The notes under the pieces were generated by a model. The model searched no databases. It was not told the DNA's origin and saw nothing but the letters and a program-made list of their open reading frames with translations. Source: Bacteroidota bacterium (GTDB taxonomy: Bacteria > Bacteroidota > Bacteroidia > Chitinophagales > Chitinophagaceae). Taken from it: a stretch of 64,000 nt of DNA. Positions 1 through 48,747 of the stretch are shown one piece after another (the stretch's first letter is position 1; each line of letters starts with the position of its first letter). The stretch is taken from NCBI GenBank assembly GCA_030706605.1, contig JAUZOE010000004.1, positions 124,001-188,000 of the forward strand, given 5' to 3'. A program made the translations under genes and the position numbers.

Positions 1-3000
1 CCGACGACAGAAAAGCCATCTCCGGATTTTAGTTATTCTTCATTAAGCAATAGTAAAAAAAGTGTCGATTTTAAAATTTCAGAAGATGATCGCGGAGGTT
101 TTGGAGTAAACCAGTTTTTTGTAAAAGACAATCGCTTTTATGTTATGTCCACTGCAGTATTTGTTCCCTGGGATAATAAACAACTCAATATTTCTTTTGG
201 CACCTACCGTAATAAAATATTGCCGGGAAGCAAGGAAAAATGGAAAGTAAAAATTACCGGAAACAAAGGAAAAAAAGTGGCTGCGGAAATGCTGGCAAGT
301 ATGTATGATGCATCGCTCGACCAGTTTAAACCACATTCATGGAATAACCTGGATAATATATGGCCCACTTATTCGGAATATAATAGCTGGGGAGGCGGAC
401 AAAATTTTTCCACAGCCCGGTCTTTTGAAAAATATTGGAATGAAAAATATATTGAACAAAAAGAAAAAAGATATGATGCATTGAATTATTTGCAAGGAGG
501 AATAGCAGGAGTTCAAATTAGAGGAAATTCATCTACCATATACAATAGAACTATGGCACCTTCTCCAGCTCTAAATGAAGTTGTAACTACAGGCTATGGT
601 CTAAAAAAAATAGTCGAAACTAAAGAATTAATGAGTGCAACTGTAGATATAGAAAGTTCTAAAGTTGCTACACCACTTGACCAATCTCAAATTCAAATTC
701 GTAAAAACTTCAACGAAACTGCTTTCTTTTTTCCTGATCTGAGAACCGATAAAGACGGCAATATTGAGTTCAGTTTTACGATGCCGGAAGCGCTTACCCA
801 ATGGAAACTAATGACGCTGGCACACACGAAAGATTTGGCAAGTGCGTATACAGAAAGAACCATAGTAACTCAAAAAGATTTAATGGTGCAGCCCAATCCG
901 CCGCGCTTTTTGAGAGAAGGCGACAGCATGGCGTTTACAGCCAAAATAGTAAACCTTAGCAATAAAATAGTAAATGGTAAGGCCGAATTTCATTTATTAG
1001 ATGCATCCACTATGAATCCTGTAGATGGCTGGTTTAAAAATACAATTCCCTCACAAAATTTTACGGCAGAGGCCGGACAAAGCACTTTGGTAAAATTCAA
1101 TATTGATGTTCCAATAAATTTCAATAATGCGGTTTTTTACAGAATAGTAGCGAAAGCCTCCCCCCATGGAGAAGGCTTGGAGGTAGCCTCTGATGGCGAA
1201 GAAGCCGCTATTCCTGTAGTGACCAACAGGATGTTGGTAACAGAAACAATGCCCTTACCAATGAGAGGCGATGGCACTAAAAATTTTAAATTTGAAAAGT
1301 TGCTTCAATCTTCTTCATCACCTTCACTCACTAATTATGGCTTAACGGTTGAATACACCACCAATCCTGCATGGTATGCCATACAGGTTCTTCCTTACCT
1401 GATGGAATATCCTTATGAATGTGCGGAGCAAACTTTTAACCGCTATTATGCCAATGCACTCGCTACAGAAATCGTAAATTCATCACCTAAAATAAAATCC
1501 ATTTTTGAGAAATGGGCAACGAGTGATACTTCTGCTTTGCTTTCCGATTTGCAAAAAAATGAAGAATTAAAATCTGTTTTATTAGAAGAAACACCCTGGG
1601 TTTTGCAGGCAAAAAGCGAAACGCAGCAGAAGAAAAATATTGCTCTGCTTTTTGATTTGGCAAAAATGAGCCTGAAGTTACAATCTTCACTTGATAAATT
1701 AACAGGGATGCAGTCGCCTGATGGTGGCTTTGTGTGGTTCAAAGGCGGACAGGATGACCGTTATATAACCCAATATATTATTTCAGGAATCGGGCATCTC
1801 AAAAAATTAAACGCACTGCCTGGGTTTCAGCAAAATGAATTAAAAAATATTTTGGATAAAGCTATCCCTTACCTGGATAAAATGCTGAAAAGAGATTACG
1901 ATAATTTAATAAAAAACAAAACAAAACTCGACCAGGACAATCTTTCAGCTATCGCTATTCAATATTTATACATGCGCAGCTTTTTTCCTGATTTCCCGAT
2001 TGCAAAAGAATTAGAAACTGCATATAACTATTACCGTGATCAGTCAAAAAAATACTGGCCTGGCCAAAGTAAATATACGCAGGCAATGATCGCTTTGGAA
2101 CTCTATCGCACTAAAGACGAAATAATAGCAAAAGCCATTATGCAATCTTTAAAAGAAAATTCAATTGATAATGAAGAGTTGGGAATGTACTGGAAAGAAT
2201 GGAACAATCATGGATATTGGTGGTACCAGCAGCCGATAGAATCGCAATCACTAATGATAGAAGCTTTTTCTGAAATTGATGACAATTCAAAAACCGTTGG
2301 AGATTTAAAAACATGGTTATTAAAAAATAAACAAACCAATAATTGGAAAACCACCAAGGCCACAGCAGATGCCTGCTATGCGCTTTTATTACAAGGAACT
2401 GACTGGCTTTCTGAAGAAAAAAATGTTACTATAAAATTGGGATCTTCAATCATTAGCAGCAAAGATGAAAAACAGGAAGCAGGTACCGGTTATTTCAAAA
2501 AAAGAATTGAAGGTGATAATATAAACCCCAGGATGGGAAATATATCTGTAACAGTTTCCTCTCAAAAGGGAAATTCGAAGGCCTCCGCCTTTGGAGGAGG
2601 TTTGGAGAAGGCCGCTTCCTGGGGCTCTGTCTATTGGCAATACTTTGAAAATTTAGACAAAATCACTTTTTCAGAAACTCCATTAAAGCTTTCAAAAAAA
2701 TTATTCATAGAAAAAAATACAGCTAACGGGCCGGTGCTTATTCCTGTTAAGGATGATGATCAGTTACATATTGGCGATAAAATAAAAGTGCGCATTGAAC
2801 TTCGTGCAGACAGGGATATGGAATATGTTCACATGAAAGATATGCGAGCCTCCTGCATGGAACCTACCAATGTGATCAGCACCTATAAATACCAGGATGC
2901 TCTTGGATATTATGAATCCACAAAAGACGTAAGCACCAATTTCTTTTTTAGTTATTTACCAAAGGGAACTTACGTTTTTGAATACCCGATGTTTGTAACG

Positions 3001-3102
3001 CATAGCGGTGATTTCAGTAACGGTATTACCACCATCCAGTGTATGTATGCTCCGGAATTTACCTCGCATAGCGAAGGAGTAAGAGTAAATGTGATCCCAT
3101 AA
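1..3102 (+). CDS. Alpha-2-macroglobulin family protein, 5' partial
   Basis: The frame is open at base 1, so the start lies outside the window; 1,033 residues remain. Bacterial alpha-2-macroglobulins are large exported proteins that trap proteases through a bait region and a thioester. The macroglobulin core begins near base 700 (ETAFFFPDLRTD). The thioester motif is PYECAEQ, with the Cys codon at 1420-1422 and the Gln codon at 1429-1431. Glu stands before the Cys where many homologues have Gly. A helical thioester domain follows to about 2400, then a beta-rich C-terminus. Between the upstream macroglobulin part and the core (480-650) is a linker with SusC-like peptides (IAGVQIRGNS, LNEVVTTGYG). 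Two related 41-base repeats lie inside the frame. The family call is firm; the true target is unknown. Confidence 0.9.
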   Translation, partial: PTTEKPSPDFSYSSLSNSKKSVDFKISEDDRGGFGVNQFFVKDNRFYVMSTAVFVPWDNKQLNISFGTYRNKILPGSKEKWKVKITGNKGKKVAAEMLASMYDASLDQFKPHSWNNLDNIWPTYSEYNSWGGGQNFSTARSFEKYWNEKYIEQKEKRYDALNYLQGGIAGVQIRGNSSTIYNRTMAPSPALNEVVTTGYGLKKIVETKELMSATVDIESSKVATPLDQSQIQIRKNFNETAFFFPDLRTDKDGNIEFSFTMPEALTQWKLMTLAHTKDLASAYTERTIVTQKDLMVQPNPPRFLREGDSMAFTAKIVNLSNKIVNGKAEFHLLDASTMNPVDGWFKNTIPSQNFTAEAGQSTLVKFNIDVPINFNNAVFYRIVAKASPHGEGLEVASDGEEAAIPVVTNRMLVTETMPLPMRGDGTKNFKFEKLLQSSSSPSLTNYGLTVEYTTNPAWYAIQVLPYLMEYPYECAEQTFNRYYANALATEIVNSSPKIKSIFEKWATSDTSALLSDLQKNEELKSVLLEETPWVLQAKSETQQKKNIALLFDLAKMSLKLQSSLDKLTGMQSPDGGFVWFKGGQDDRYITQYIISGIGHLKKLNALPGFQQNELKNILDKAIPYLDKMLKRDYDNLIKNKTKLDQDNLSAIAIQYLYMRSFFPDFPIAKELETAYNYYRDQSKKYWPGQSKYTQAMIALELYRTKDEIIAKAIMQSLKENSIDNEELGMYWKEWNNHGYWWYQQPIESQSLMIEAFSEIDDNSKTVGDLKTWLLKNKQTNNWKTTKATADACYALLLQGTDWLSEEKNVTIKLGSSIISSKDEKQEAGTGYFKKRIEGDNINPRMGNISVTVSSQKGNSKASAFGGGLEKAASWGSVYWQYFENLDKITFSETPLKLSKKLFIEKNTANGPVLIPVKDDDQLHIGDKIKVRIELRADRDMEYVHMKDMRASCMEPTNVISTYKYQDALGYYESTKDVSTNFFFSYLPKGTYVFEYPMFVTHSGDFSNGITTIQCMYAPEFTSHSEGVRVNVIP
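1151..1191 (+). repeat. Intragenic 41-bp repeat, copy A
   Basis: GC-richer, partly self-complementary segment (gcctcc ... ggagaaggcttggagg) inside the macroglobulin gene. It encodes KASPHGEGLEVAS. By my alignment it matches copy B at 2576-2616 in 31 of 41 positions without gaps, and it is read in the same frame. It resembles an in-frame inserted palindromic element. Confidence 0.6.
2576..2616 (+). repeat. Intragenic 41-bp repeat, copy B
   Basis: Second copy of the repeat at 1151-1191, encoding KASAFGGGLEKAA in the same frame. The segment is visibly richer in G and C than the flanking AT-rich coding sequence and can fold on itself (gcctccgcc against ggaggaggt). Confidence 0.6.
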
Positions 3103-21375: not shown

Positions 21376-22989
21376 TTATTTACTAATTCCAATTCTTATG
21401 CCATAATCTATCAAATGCTCTTTTATTGGATAATTTTTTTGATATGTTGATAACAACTGATAACGGATACTAGGCCCTATATGCCAATTTAGTTTATTAG
21501 ATTTAAAAGTAATAAAAGTGCCAAAATTACCACTTACGTTTACTTTACGCAACAAATCTGGATCATTAATATAATACCTTTCATCAGAAGAAATGATAAA
21601 TGCATTGCTTTTCAATATTAAAGAAGGGCCAATGGTAGAAGCTAAATTTATCTTTATTATACGATTTTCAAATAAAGAATATTGCAAGCCTACAGGTAAA
21701 GAAAACTGCAAGCTATAATTTGACAAAGAAATCTGATTTTGCCCCTGTCCGTTGCCATAATGAGTAATATAGCTACGGCTGTAAGGTAGTCCGGTAGATT
21801 CATCTTTTAACAATAAAGTAGCAAAGGTTGGATGTACCTGGTTTGAAATGACATTATACCCAGAATAAGATAAGTTAGCGCCGATAATAAATTGCCATTC
21901 ATTTGTGAAATTATACGCTATTTGCGTTCCAATCTCAAATCCCATATTGGCATTATAAATCATGCCATTTTTATTCTGATTAGTCTGTACAATAATTGGC
22001 GAAGGATTGGGGTCAACAGAAGGCTGAAAGCCTTTTCCTATAAAGGACACAGTACTTATTGTAGGAGTCACAAAATAAAGCCAGTTAGCTTTTGAATTTC
22101 TTTTTTTAGTAGCCAGTACGGTATTTTTCAGATCAGATTGATTCTCTTTATTTTCCGTGATATTATCAATTTGCAAAGAAGGTTCAATGGTAGCATTTTT
22201 GATTGAATGAATCGGAGAAATCTTATCCTCATTATTCAAAGAAAATATTTCTCTTAAATTATTGAAATACTCATCGTTAATATCAAAGGTTAAACCATTA
22301 TTTTTAAGAAAATCGCTTTCCAAAAATTCAAAATTATCAATAGAAGAGTGAATTCCTAAATCATTATCAGTAACCAGGTTATTTTCATTGCCAAAATTAT
22401 GAATAGAAGTGTTTTCGAAAATGTCATTATTAGCGCTTTTTTTAATTGTAGAATTCCCCGTTACTAAATTTTCATTTTTCTGAATACCCGATTTTTTTGA
22501 ATGAATTCCATCCGGATAAAGGTTAACTATTCTCGCTCCTTTATGAGATGCAGTAGAACTCACTGCTTTTTCTTCCTGGGTTTCAGAAATTATTTCATTC
22601 CCTGAAACTGAAATACTATTCCTTTTTACTTTTTCCCCGGAGAAATCCGCATCCTGCTGAGAAATTGATAAAGACTGACCAACCTGATTGGCTGATGAAG
22701 AATTAGTATTTAGCGAAATAATATTATTATCATTAGAACTTACTGTTGCATTTTCCCCGAAAGTGGAATTCACACCAACAGAACGTTTCTCCGTGTTATT
22801 TAAATGGCCTATCCCGAACAAAGTAAATAAAAAGACTAGTGTCATGGCAATAGACGGCCACTTGCTGCCCGGATGCAAATCGTTATAAATTCCATGCCAT
22901 ACCCTCCTTGACGGAATCATTTTAAATTGATCAGCCTGATTTTTCAAGACTTCCTCAAAATTGGTCATATCAAAATCTCTTTCCTTCAT
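21376..22989 (-). CDS. Membrane-anchored protein with anti-sigma-like N-terminus and outer-membrane barrel-like C-terminus
   Basis: A 537-residue protein in three parts. Residues 1-43 are cytoplasmic and contain PSRRVWHGIYNDL. A membrane helix spans about 45-62. A long polar Asn/Ser-rich stretch (63-290) leads to a C-terminal 240 residues of alternating strands (ANMGFEIGTQIAYNF, WQFIIGANLSYSGYN, LINYGIRIGISK-like end DYGIRIGISK), typical of small outer-membrane barrels. It follows the ECF sigma gene by 67 bases on the same strand, which suggests a sigma/regulator pair. It has no zinc-binding anti-sigma motif. Its N-terminus resembles that of the protein at 47706. Met8 is an alternative start. 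Confidence 0.6.
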   Translation of the reverse strand: MKERDFDMTNFEEVLKNQADQFKMIPSRRVWHGIYNDLHPGSKWPSIAMTLVFLFTLFGIGHLNNTEKRSVGVNSTFGENATVSSNDNNIISLNTNSSSANQVGQSLSISQQDADFSGEKVKRNSISVSGNEIISETQEEKAVSSTASHKGARIVNLYPDGIHSKKSGIQKNENLVTGNSTIKKSANNDIFENTSIHNFGNENNLVTDNDLGIHSSIDNFEFLESDFLKNNGLTFDINDEYFNNLREIFSLNNEDKISPIHSIKNATIEPSLQIDNITENKENQSDLKNTVLATKKRNSKANWLYFVTPTISTVSFIGKGFQPSVDPNPSPIIVQTNQNKNGMIYNANMGFEIGTQIAYNFTNEWQFIIGANLSYSGYNVISNQVHPTFATLLLKDESTGLPYSRSYITHYGNGQGQNQISLSNYSLQFSLPVGLQYSLFENRIIKINLASTIGPSLILKSNAFIISSDERYYINDPDLLRKVNVSGNFGTFITFKSNKLNWHIGPSIRYQLLSTYQKNYPIKEHLIDYGIRIGISK

Positions 22990-23056: not shown

Positions 23057-23632
23057 TTAATTACTGACACCTGCCATCCTCACATTCTCTCTTGGCTTTT
23101 GCAATATTTTCTTTTTAACAAGAATATCTTCAAGCAATGCCTTTGCCCTCGTATATTGTGACCTACTTGTACTCTCTTCAATATCTAAAATAGCTCCAAT
23201 CTCTTTATGCGAAAACCCTTCAATGGCATACAAATTAAGTACTGTCCGATAACCAATCGGTAATAATCTAATACACTCTACCACTTGCTTTGCCTGCAAC
23301 ATGGATGGAATATTATTTTCATTAATCTGAATACTGGATGCATGAACAAGATCAACACTATCAGAGAACTTTTTATTCTTTTTTAAAACATTTATACAAG
23401 TGTGCACAATTATTCTTCTGATCCAACCTTCAAGAGCTCCTATTCCACGAAACTGAAGAATTTGTGAATACACTTTTATAAATCCTTCCTGCAACATATC
23501 TTCAGCATCTTCACGATTACGGGCATAACGATAGCAAACACCAAGCATCCGCGGGCTAAAACGATTATATAAAGCCTCCTGCGCAGTTGCAAGGTTATCC
23601 CGACAGCCTTGAAGCATTATCTCTTCTGTCAT
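23057..23632 (-). CDS. RNA polymerase sigma factor, ECF subfamily
   Basis: A 191-residue sigma-70 family factor containing only regions 2 and 4. Region 2 has the DAEDMLQEGFIKVY motif (residues 42-55) that binds core polymerase and the -10 element. Region 4 has GYRTVLNLYAIEGFSHKEIGAIL, with its helix-turn-helix. The order and length fit ECF sigma factors of Bacteroidota. It is followed by the membrane-anchored barrel protein, which may control it. It is clearly a paralogue of the factor at 47118 (shared EDA/EDAND..LQ.GFIKV and EGW.RRI). Confidence 0.93.
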   Translation of the reverse strand: MTEEIMLQGCRDNLATAQEALYNRFSPRMLGVCYRYARNREDAEDMLQEGFIKVYSQILQFRGIGALEGWIRRIIVHTCINVLKKNKKFSDSVDLVHASSIQINENNIPSMLQAKQVVECIRLLPIGYRTVLNLYAIEGFSHKEIGAILDIEESTSRSQYTRAKALLEDILVKKKILQKPRENVRMAGVSN

Positions 23633-46499: not shown

Positions 46500-47075
46500 A
46501 TGAAAACATTAATTTTTGCAACCAACAACAGCAATAAGGTAACTGAAGTAAGAAGCATTTTGGGAGAAAAGTTCAAAATAATATCACTTGCCGAAGCTGG
46601 AATCAACATTGATATTCCTGAGCCTTATGATACACTGGAAGAAAATGCCTGCGAAAAAGCAAGAGTTATTAATTCGATTACCAGGGGAAATTGTTTTGCA
46701 GAAGATACAGGATTAGAAACAGATGCATTAAACGGAGAGCCCGGCGTAAAAAGTGCCCGCTATGCCGGAGAAGGAAGATCTTTTGAAAAAAATATTGATA
46801 AGTTATTAACCAGGTTAAAAGATTTAGAAAATCGAAAAGCACAATTCAAAACGGTGATTTGCGTTATCCTTAACGGCGAACAAACTGTTTTTGAAGGCAT
46901 CTGCAAAGGCACTATTATCAAAGAAAGAAGAGGTAATTCTGGCTTTGGATATGATCCGGTTTTTATTCCTGAAGGTTCAGATAAAACATTTGCCGAAATG
47001 ACACTTGCTGAAAAAAATATTTTCAGCCATAGAAAAAAGGCAATTGAAAAATTAACTACTTTTTTAAAAATCTGA
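46500..47075 (+). CDS. rdgB: XTP/dITP diphosphatase (Ham1 family)
   Basis: RdgB hydrolyses non-canonical purine triphosphates (dITP, XTP) to monophosphates and so keeps them out of DNA. The 191 residues show FATNNSNKVTEVRSIL with the triphosphate-binding TNN.NK, EDTGLETDALNGEPGVKSARYAGEG, and SGFGYDPVFIPEG; the terminal FSHRKKAI is also conserved. The length is standard. It lies between the 45960 gene (six bases) and the sigma factor gene (42 bases). Confidence 0.96.
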   Translation: MKTLIFATNNSNKVTEVRSILGEKFKIISLAEAGINIDIPEPYDTLEENACEKARVINSITRGNCFAEDTGLETDALNGEPGVKSARYAGEGRSFEKNIDKLLTRLKDLENRKAQFKTVICVILNGEQTVFEGICKGTIIKERRGNSGFGYDPVFIPEGSDKTFAEMTLAEKNIFSHRKKAIEKLTTFLKI

Positions 47076-47117: not shown

Positions 47118-47696
47118 TTGGCAGAACAAAGCAACCATATCCCCCCCGAATCCTACTTAATACAAGCGTGCATTGATGGTGACCGTCAGATGCAGAAAGT
47201 TTTGTACAAAAAATTTGCAGCAAAAATGTATGGCATCTGTCTCAGATATGCAGGCAACACCGAAGATGCCAATGATATTTTGCAGGATGGCTTTATAAAG
47301 GTATTTAAGAATTTAAGTAAATTTAGAGGAGAAGGTTCTTTTGAAGGTTGGGTAAGAAGAATTTTTGTAAATACCTCTATCGAGCATTTTAGAAAAAAAG
47401 TGAAATTATATAATGTTACAGAAGTTCAGGAAAATACGATAGAAGATAAAGAATTCAATGCGCTGGATTTACTGGCTACAAAAGATATTATCAGCATTGT
47501 GAATGAATTATCACCAGGATACAAAGCAGTTTTCAACCTGCATGTTATTGAGGGCTACTCGCATAAAGAGATTGCCGATATTTTGGGCATTACTGAAGGC
47601 ACCAGTAAATCGCAATTAGCCAGGGCAAAAGGTGTTTTGAAAAAAATGACAGATGTCAGGATGAATAAAATAAAAAACGATTCCAATATTTCTTAA
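47118..47696 (+). CDS. RNA polymerase sigma factor, ECF subfamily
   Basis: A 192-residue ECF sigma factor. Region 2 includes RYAGNTEDANDILQDGFIKVF and GEGSFEGWVRRIF; region 4 includes GYKAVFNLHVIEGYSHKEIADILGI, followed by TEGTSKSQLARAK. The start must be TTG at 47118 (or ATT 12 bases before). The frame has no ATG between an upstream stop and the sigma-2 region. It is a paralogue of the factor at 23057-23632. The next gene, nine bases later, encodes a single-pass protein that may control it. Confidence 0.93.
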   Translation: MAEQSNHIPPESYLIQACIDGDRQMQKVLYKKFAAKMYGICLRYAGNTEDANDILQDGFIKVFKNLSKFRGEGSFEGWVRRIFVNTSIEHFRKKVKLYNVTEVQENTIEDKEFNALDLLATKDIISIVNELSPGYKAVFNLHVIEGYSHKEIADILGITEGTSKSQLARAKGVLKKMTDVRMNKIKNDSNIS

Positions 47697-47705
47697 GCAT
47701 CCACA

Positions 47706-48293
47706 ATGGAAAATTTTAAAACCAGGCTCTTTAATTATGAAGTTCCTCCACCAGAAAAAACATGGAGTAACATTGCAGCCGATTTGGATAATGAAAAAGT
47801 GATTAAAATACCTGGCTTAAGAAAAAAATCCAAATTACTTTTTTATAGTTTAACCGCAGCCGCTTCGTTGATCATTATTTTTGTTGGCACTTTTTTTTTC
47901 AATAAAAATACTGGGATAAAATCGATAGCAAATAATACTGTATTGAAAATAAATAATCCTATAAGCCAAAAAACAAAAGACTCCATCACACGTAACTACC
48001 AGATTTTAGAAGCCATTATTAATGCCCCACAGGATAAAAAACTATTGGCTTCCAATTTTGAAAAAGAAGACGGGGTTCCCAAAAAATATATTACCATAGC
48101 CGGACCCGAAGGACAGCCCGTTAAAATTTCTCCTAAGGCAGCCACTCTTATTCTATCCGCCGATAATGAATACCCCCCAAGACCCGTGTGGAATAAGAAA
48201 ATAGAGAAATGGAAACAAATTATGATGAACAAAATGACCTCTCCTACTTCTACTAATCTTGTTGATATATTACAACTTGCCAGTATTAATTAA
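47706..48293 (+). CDS. Single-pass membrane protein, anti-sigma-like
   Basis: A 195-residue protein with a short cytoplasmic segment containing PPPEKTWSNIAADL, a basic stretch RKKSK, one membrane helix (about 44-65) and a periplasmic tail of 130 residues with no known domain. Its place nine bases after an ECF sigma gene, and its similarity in the cytoplasmic motif to the partner at 21376-22989, suggest an anti-sigma or sigma-regulating role. It has no zinc-binding HxxxCxxC. The function is inferred from context only. Confidence 0.65.
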   Translation: MENFKTRLFNYEVPPPEKTWSNIAADLDNEKVIKIPGLRKKSKLLFYSLTAAASLIIIFVGTFFFNKNTGIKSIANNTVLKINNPISQKTKDSITRNYQILEAIINAPQDKKLLASNFEKEDGVPKKYITIAGPEGQPVKISPKAATLILSADNEYPPRPVWNKKIEKWKQIMMNKMTSPTSTNLVDILQLASIN

Positions 48294-48315: not shown

Positions 48316-48747
48316 ATGGCCAGGATAAAGATTCAACTACCACAAAAAGTAATTGCTTCATTTACAATCCCCGTAAGGATTACTGATATAAACTATGGTA
48401 ATCACGTTGGTAATCATGCCATGGTAGAGATTATACATGAAACTCGTGTACAGTTTTTACAAAAACATAATTTTACTGAATTAAATGCGGGAGGAACTTC
48501 ACTTATCATGAATGAACTTTTAGTTGAGTTTAAGAATGAAGCGTTTTATAATGATTCGCTGGAAGTAAAAATATTTTCAGGAGAAATTTCAAGGAAAAGC
48601 TTTGAACTGTTCTACCTTTTAACTACCCGGAGAAATGGGGCAACTGTGGTTATTGCACATGCTAAAACAGGAATAGTTTGTTATGATTACCAGGAGAAAA
48701 AAGTAGATCTGCTTCCGGAAAAATTAAAATTGATTTTACTCAATTAA
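48316..48747 (+). CDS. Acyl-CoA thioesterase, hotdog fold
   Basis: A 143-residue single-hotdog protein of the 4HBT family. The active-site region VRITDINYGNHVGNHAMVEIIHETR has Asp in the usual catalytic position followed by the helix-binding segment. VEFKNEAFYNDSLEVKI and AKTGIVCYDY are family strands. It probably hydrolyses short acyl-CoAs. It follows the anti-sigma-like gene by 22 bases. Its stop overlaps convergent aroE by eight bases. Confidence 0.85.
   Translation: MARIKIQLPQKVIASFTIPVRITDINYGNHVGNHAMVEIIHETRVQFLQKHNFTELNAGGTSLIMNELLVEFKNEAFYNDSLEVKIFSGEISRKSFELFYLLTTRRNGATVVIAHAKTGIVCYDYQEKKVDLLPEKLKLILLN

Follow-up and report, generated by a model that had tools for sequence, protein, structure and literature searches.

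Proteins encoded behind ECF sigma genes of Bacteroidia share a ~30-residue N-terminal element, a putative sigma clamp

In the window, by which we mean the whole 64 kb stretch of DNA analysed here (positions 124001-188000, in an assembly of 4.27 Mb), a gene for an ECF sigma factor is followed, 9 nt 3′ of its stop codon, by the gene of a partner protein, and a paralogous sigma gene with a partner of its own lies on the reverse strand (Table 1). The genes on either side of the first pair we take to be rdgB-type (upstream) and thioesterase-like (downstream).

Table 1. Features of the two sigma/partner pairs and their neighbourhood, in positions of the window
Feature	Position	Strand	Basis or remark
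Presumed rdgB-type gene	46500..47075	+	homologue upstream of sigma in 20/80 loci
ECF sigma factor, regions 2 and 4, TTG start, 192 aa	47118..47696	+	Pfam, NCBIfam
Putative anti-sigma factor (partner), 195 aa, barrel-less, single membrane helix	47706..48293	+	ORF, hydropathy
N-terminal element MENFKTRLFNYEVPPPEKTWSNIAADLDNEK, a proposed sigma clamp: predicted helices FKTRLF (short) and TWSNIAADLDNEK with an extended proline stretch between them	47706..47798	+	
Predicted membrane helix LLFYSLTAAASLIIIFVGT, partner residues 44-62	47835..47891	+	hydropathy, mean 2.06
C-terminal region, predicted periplasmic by orientation, conserved in 11 aligned orthologues	48087..48290	+	
Presumed thioesterase-like gene	48316..48747	+	homologue downstream in 10 closest loci
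Paralogous ECF sigma factor	23057..23632	-	Pfam and sequence identity
537-aa partner of the paralogous sigma: element (MIPSRRVWHGIYNDL), membrane helix, C-terminal barrel; Dma-like layout	21376..22989	-	

The product of the gene at 47118 is an ECF sigma factor according to Pfam (Sigma70_r2, 3.1e-16; Sigma70_r4_2, 2.5e-16), and it matches TIGR02937 of NCBIfam at 3.1e-27; among the 25 NCBIfam matches listed, the cut-off was reached by the superfamily model alone. Its TTG start coincides in the alignment with the starts of two relatives (TTG in L024, ATG in L025). The initial annotation regarded this protein as a paralogue of the sigma factor at 23057, which is borne out by 44% identity (E 7e-43). 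The genome holds 21 sigma-like matches, six of which form a close subgroup, namely the window sigma and five others at 43-48% identity; these belong to six mutually related sigma/partner pairs, the window pair being one of them.

As had been annotated, the partner at 47706 is a protein of 195 residues with one membrane helix, judging from its ORF and hydropathy. The 16 residues around the helix start include six K/R and no D/E, which fits an N-in orientation. Searches of Pfam and NCBIfam gave zero family matches for this partner, a C-terminal outer-membrane barrel is absent from its 195 residues, and no barrel gene adjoins it, since the next gene is the thioesterase-like one. For the partner at 21376-22989 the Pfam scan likewise returned nothing, and its earlier label as the 'barrel partner' is upheld by the last ~200 residues, which are recognized by a profile derived from the ends of other long partners (E 3e-11, with the database size set to 1000).

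The two partners share a motif close to their N-termini, seen in PPPEKTWSNIAADL of the window partner and MIPSRRVWHGIYNDL of the barrel partner. The common motif pointed out in the initial annotation as P..W..I..DL is thus real, but its 'P..W' was imprecise, as the proline lies five residues before the tryptophan (P....W..I..DL), and the final 'DL' is present in both partners although its D is not conserved over the family. The consensus of the family reads roughly F...L..[YF]E..P[PS]..vW..I...L and covers ~30 residues. In this genome, the genes that follow the six related sigma genes open with stretches akin to one another, namely PPPEKTWSNIAADL (window), VPSQNFWESVDEQL, MPPPEVWEAIDKKL and IPSRRVWHGIYNDL (the barrel partner at 21376) and two degenerate versions, NKEVTWDKLHARI and GNGDWESISKKI; in the genes shown behind the remaining ECF matches of the genome, no element was visible by eye.

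The family was collected from the best 80 of 593 matches of the sigma alignment in genome contigs, all of them Bacteroidota by title. The next gene was taken at 78 of these 80 loci (it was not obtained for L057 and L094, and for L070 a wrong ORF of 54 aa was picked), which together with the six partners of the own genome gave 84 partners. None of the 84, a number that includes the wrong ORF of L070 and two partners truncated by contig ends, has HxxxCxxC before the membrane helix, in agreement with the annotated lack of a zinc-type anti-sigma motif. When 81 partners were anchored on the first W..[ILVMFA], so that W was fixed by the alignment procedure, the columns relative to W showed F (60%) at -16, L/F at -12, Y/F at -9, E (52%) at -8, P (75%) at -5, P/S at -4, I (73%) at +3 and L (74%) at +7; true percentages are somewhat higher because another W was counted in at least 7 of the 81. 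The tryptophan itself is replaced by leucine, with the proline part kept, in five partners labelled Prolixibacteraceae or Odoribacter (L074, L080, L087, L089 and L096).

A motif profile trained on 14 partners was then applied to the held-out sequences. Of the 70 held-out partners, represented by their first 90 residues, 49 scored above 8 bits and 21 below; none of the 762 other ORFs and none of the 1400 shuffled sequences exceeded this value. Three high-scoring control ORFs had been removed ahead of this test, for they covered the missed partners of L057, L094 and L070. Three weak controls exceeded 5 bits; one of these, L010 with 5.2 bits, follows a different ECF gene of the own genome. In the Mucilaginibacter loci L042, L045 and L048 a further downstream ORF at ~5.2-6.5 kb gave weak element scores of 5.9-7.7 bits.

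The initial annotation had proposed to profile the genes that follow ECF genes and to check the profile for enrichment at such positions, and enrichment is what we found. The profile used for six-frame searches had 38 positions and 49 rows (four from the own genome and 45 from other public genomes), some of which are possibly of the same species as the searched genomes, a circumstance that affects sensitivity more than adjacency. When 20 genomes (the own genome and relatives) were searched, each of the 52 element matches at E<=0.02 was preceded by a sigma-profile match that ended 14-126 nt before it, and among weaker matches (E 0.1-1) this held for 6 of 15, the other nine lying elsewhere. Seen from the side of the sigma genes in these genomes, a strong element was found behind 50 of the 66 genes scoring >=180 bits (54 of 66 including weak ones), and no element was detectable behind 12/66 genes at >=180 bits, 7/10 at 140-180 bits and 9/10 at 90-140 bits. 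As sigma genes without an element are commoner at lower scores, the element is a trait of one ECF subgroup and its closest relatives and not of ECF sigma factors in general. The 12 genes include L005 of the own genome, behind which a degenerate motif can be recognized by eye.

The same linkage was found in a phylum-wide sample of 198 genomes (>=90% complete, six frames), where 66 of 66 element matches at E<=0.001 lay directly behind an ECF gene. This number comprises 62 matches outside the own genome and four within it, the latter also being among the 52 above, and two of the 66 come from one protein (G110:C15). For 60 of the 62, a sigma match adjoins among the matches listed (the adjacency table used the best 150 sigma matches), and for the other two, L102 and L103, the ECF gene was confirmed by reading the DNA. 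Genomes with an element match at this threshold made up 45 of 49 in the class of the window (Bacteroidia, a count that takes in its own family and order) and other classes had none among 149 genomes, of which 133 were assigned to that group by list order. The short element that the initial annotation supposed to be common to both partners is therefore supported by profile and adjacency, while a sigma-binding role is suggested by modelling (see below). Sigma gene and partner ORF overlap at 54 of the 76 loci that were scored (L058 and L070 left aside), a proportion overstated by taking the longest ORF. At L103 (G141:C95, reverse strand 1096-3001), an element-bearing partner of ~200 aa comes after an ECF gene that is more divergent, and next to the partner lies the gene of a protein with a signal-peptide-like stretch downstream; the element is not confined to the main sigma subgroup.

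Behind the shared N-terminus, partners differ greatly in architecture. Dividing them at 350 residues gave 34 long and 47 short partners (the window partner and L005 included) and left three unlabelled (L070, L081 and L084); one hydrophobic helix was found in 77 of 84. Six of the eight long partners scanned exceeded the cut-off of the barrel family PF13568, L033 reaching 26.7 vs 27 and L034 21.5, and of the long partners of the own genome L002 and L003 (the latter truncated by the locus end) pass and L006 fails. In a split form, found at 24 of 45 short-partner loci, a separate downstream gene matches the barrel profile at a gap of -35 to +100 nt; 21 of these genes are the very family behind the profile, and the three others (L060, L062 and L101) score E<1e-27 against it. 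Seven of eight separate barrel genes scanned pass PF13568 (L101 fails), and the separate barrel proteins that were read open with a signal-peptide-like stretch instead of the element. At eight of the remaining 21 short-partner loci a following ORF was not obtained, for L049 at least because the contig ends there. The three short partners scanned against Pfam (window, L022 and L042) gave no barrel match, and the window partner and its nearest orthologues constitute a form with no adjacent barrel.

A quick phylogeny of 84 sigma proteins unites the window and 20 rdgB-linked loci in one clade (SH-aLRT 86, not starred), in which three partners are long (L033, L034 and L036) and 18 are short. Since long and short partners occur in one clade of rdgB loci, the sensor part has been exchanged at one syntenic locus. 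At least three changes between long and short are needed in this clade and at least eight over the whole sigma tree, these counts being rough because 33 of 81 inner branches of the tree are open.

Two other loci of the own genome have related layouts. At L005/L110 (C48), the sigma gene is followed by a partner of 234 aa with a degenerate element and then by a protein of 372 aa with a signal-peptide-like start, an outer-membrane-like end and no Pfam match. At L111 (C19:22000-25500, reverse strand 508-3019), a distantly related ECF gene precedes an anti-sigma with two tandem copies, by eye, of a different N-terminal part, and a separate protein matching the split-barrel profile follows, so that it looks like an independent second split system; a match like this one was present in 14 of 20 genomes (E<1e-32). 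The idea that the L111 anti-sigma shares the C-terminal tail of split anti-sigmas of the Sphingobacteriaceae type was rejected (tail profile score -2.4).

A barrel stands at the end of many element carriers, and one could suppose that the element is unconnected with sigma factors and is an N-terminal signal that places outer-membrane barrels or inner-membrane proteins. We consider this extremely improbable, as short proteins carry the element too, the matches at E<=0.001 in 198 genomes lie solely behind ECF genes, and the separate barrel proteins start with a different stretch.

The element also occurs in tandem. The W motif is found twice in L023-L031, which are all of the ten closest loci but L022, and also in L037, L041, L100, L075 and L097, mostly at a spacing of 30-35 residues; it occurs three times in L093 and four times in L083, and in L092 three times by a loose pattern and once by a stricter one. 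The W is lost from the middle copy in L023 and L026. The window partner and its sister L022 are single-copy, and the rdgB clade requires at least three switches between single and multiple copies, with copy numbers entered by hand. On a further reading, the element would be a separate class of anti-sigma domain, the prevalent one for this ECF subgroup in Bacteroidia: a repeatable clamp of ~32 residues that became joined in evolution to fused barrels, separate barrels or short tails, with 2-4 copies acting multivalently and the window gene representing a lineage that returned to one copy. We regard this as somewhat unlikely; if it were true, multi-copy partners would hold several sigma factors at once and the copy number would tune the threshold.

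The window sigma and partner genes share a reading frame, so that translation continued past the sigma stop yields a single chain. AlphaFold2 modelled this chain (52 aligned rows; L058 and L090, which have an in-frame stop within the supposed sigma stretch, were left out of the fused alignment and trimmed for the tree) with a mean pLDDT of 88.1 and a pTM of 0.81; by blocks, the linker (191-200) scored 65 and the element 93 and 97 (201-220) and 85 (221-230). The model confidently gives the element as two short helices (200-205 and 215-227) joined by an extended proline linker, next to a compact sigma, the closeness of the two being forced by the fused chain. For L028, a second species with two copies (21 rows), the pTM was 0.71, and the first copy (83/95/88, with its opening residues in a block scoring 51) was placed more confidently than the second (71/81/80).

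In structure comparisons including Foldseek, the modelled sigma aligned over both domains with sigma factors from anti-sigma complexes, namely SigW/RsiW (Z 13.3, rmsd 4.7), SigK/RskA (Z 12.1, rmsd 7.9), CnrH/CnrY (Z 11.5, rmsd 5.6) and a NepR complex (Z 10.9, rmsd 4.9). Polymerase-bound SigH differed by an rmsd of about 26, the RseA complex aligned at rmsd 14 only and AlgU/MucA over one domain. The closed sigma is no proof of a clamp, because SigG1, a structure in whose title an anti-sigma is not mentioned, gives an equally close fit (Z 11.9, rmsd 4.4). The closed form of the model does argue against the partner being a positive co-factor that tethers or activates the sigma factor instead of inhibiting it, and barrel-bearing partners, likened to ours by description, inhibit in two systems (PMC13088901 and PMC9308784, each available in part); such a co-factor is very improbable.

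The resemblance of the modelled sigma to the sigma of the RsiW and RskA complexes brings up the class I anti-sigmas (RseA, RskA, RsiW), of whose domain the element might be a truncated form, the W helix corresponding to helix 4 (on sigma region 2) and the three-helix bundle being lost. HHalign sets the element on the helix-4 part of RskA-type proteins of the same genomes, proline on proline, helix 4 being our own reading, and a contact of an aromatic residue (W or Y) with proline is conserved in several groups according to the accessible part of PMC7406223. Moreover, NCBIfam NF052375 weakly matches L074 (residues 19-93, E 0.0028), and its matches overlap element matches in the relatives G003 and G005. 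The HHalign probability is only 5.3%, however, the W helix aligns but weakly, and the 49 element sequences searched alone against Pfam and NCBIfam gave scattered chance-level matches and no anti-sigma model. Unlike a class I domain, the element has just ~30 residues, no zinc motif and a weak profile score, and we judge truncation unlikely.

The two helices and extended linker of the AlphaFold2 model recall the class II anti-sigma CnrY of C. metallidurans, which, as far as PMC7406223 and PMC4598750 are available, also has a short two-helix cytoplasmic part that wraps a closed sigma. The modelled sigma lies near the CnrH of that complex, and convergence with, or kinship to, a class II clamp can tentatively be entertained, at rather less than an even chance. 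On the other side, SigW/RsiW of class I scores higher, and a search of solved chains with the element profile returned three chance-level matches (E 0.8-0.91), CnrY not being among them; a sequence match of CnrY to the element was not seen.

We conclude that the partner is very probably an anti-sigma factor whose N-terminal element of ~30 residues holds the cognate ECF sigma closed, the remainder being an exchangeable sensor. In the mechanism we propose, the first ~30 residues of the partner would face the cytoplasm and act as a minimal anti-sigma element, keeping the sigma factor closed at the inner membrane. If known complexes are a guide, sigma region 4 would be contacted by one of the two helices and region 2, the place where RNA polymerase binds, by the one that carries the tryptophan (W..I...L). 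The sensor part would be a barrel in the same chain (the Dma type), a neighbouring barrel protein (the split form) or a short periplasmic tail (the window), and an envelope signal that alters or cleaves this part would set the sigma free.

According to the part of a 2020 survey at our disposal (PMC7406223), 6% of Bacteroidetes ECF sigmas adjoin a class I anti-sigma domain, and anti-sigmas other than class I may dominate there. For one ECF subgroup, the element is a concrete and searchable answer: ~30 residues suffice to recognize barrel, split and barrel-less partners as one functional family. Moreover, it makes three questions testable, i.e. whether a barrel signals via a separate chain, what replaces the barrel where it is missing, and whether tandem copies hold more than one sigma.

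Among known systems, cell-surface signalling by FecI/FecR also links an inner-membrane anti-sigma to an outer-membrane protein, but its N-terminal part differs; among the neighbouring genes that were read, no TonB-dependent receptor was seen. The barrel-bearing form is the already published Dma type, of which the initial annotation was unaware, as it was of the split and tandem forms. New here are the definition of the short element, its linkage to ECF genes across the class, and the variants in which the partner is split, lacks a barrel or has tandem copies. In the literature searched, we did not find the motif, the barrel-less, split and tandem forms or the long/short exchange at one locus, some of which the PNAS 2024 Dma and EcfO papers may cover.

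P. vulgatus M0N98_03760-61 and B. fragilis EcfO, compared by description from the part of PMC9308784 available, likewise have an ECF gene followed by a partner anti-sigma; those anti-sigmas bear a barrel, whereas the window partner is barrel-less. The same source shows sigma-dependent protection in P. vulgatus strains that have the sigma and lack a working barrel anti-sigma.

The closest likeness in layout is to the Dma anti-sigmas of Bacteroides, which, in the available part of PMC13088901, consist of an N-terminal anti-sigma part, a membrane helix, a disordered tether and a C-terminal barrel; the ECF sigma of Dma1 is released from repression when Dma1 is mutated, and Dma3 of B. theta carries its own sigma domain at the N-terminus, a natural counterpart of our folded sigma-partner chain. 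Compared by description, the window partner resembles Dma in its putative N-terminal anti-sigma part, its single membrane helix (by hydropathy) and the ECF sigma gene alongside, and the paralogue at 21376-22989 has the C-terminal barrel as well. Unlike Dma, the window partner has neither a barrel nor an adjacent barrel gene, and is therefore not filed as Dma, and other element carriers are split over two genes or have 2-4 copies of the element. At its cytoplasmic end, the window partner probably works like Dma.
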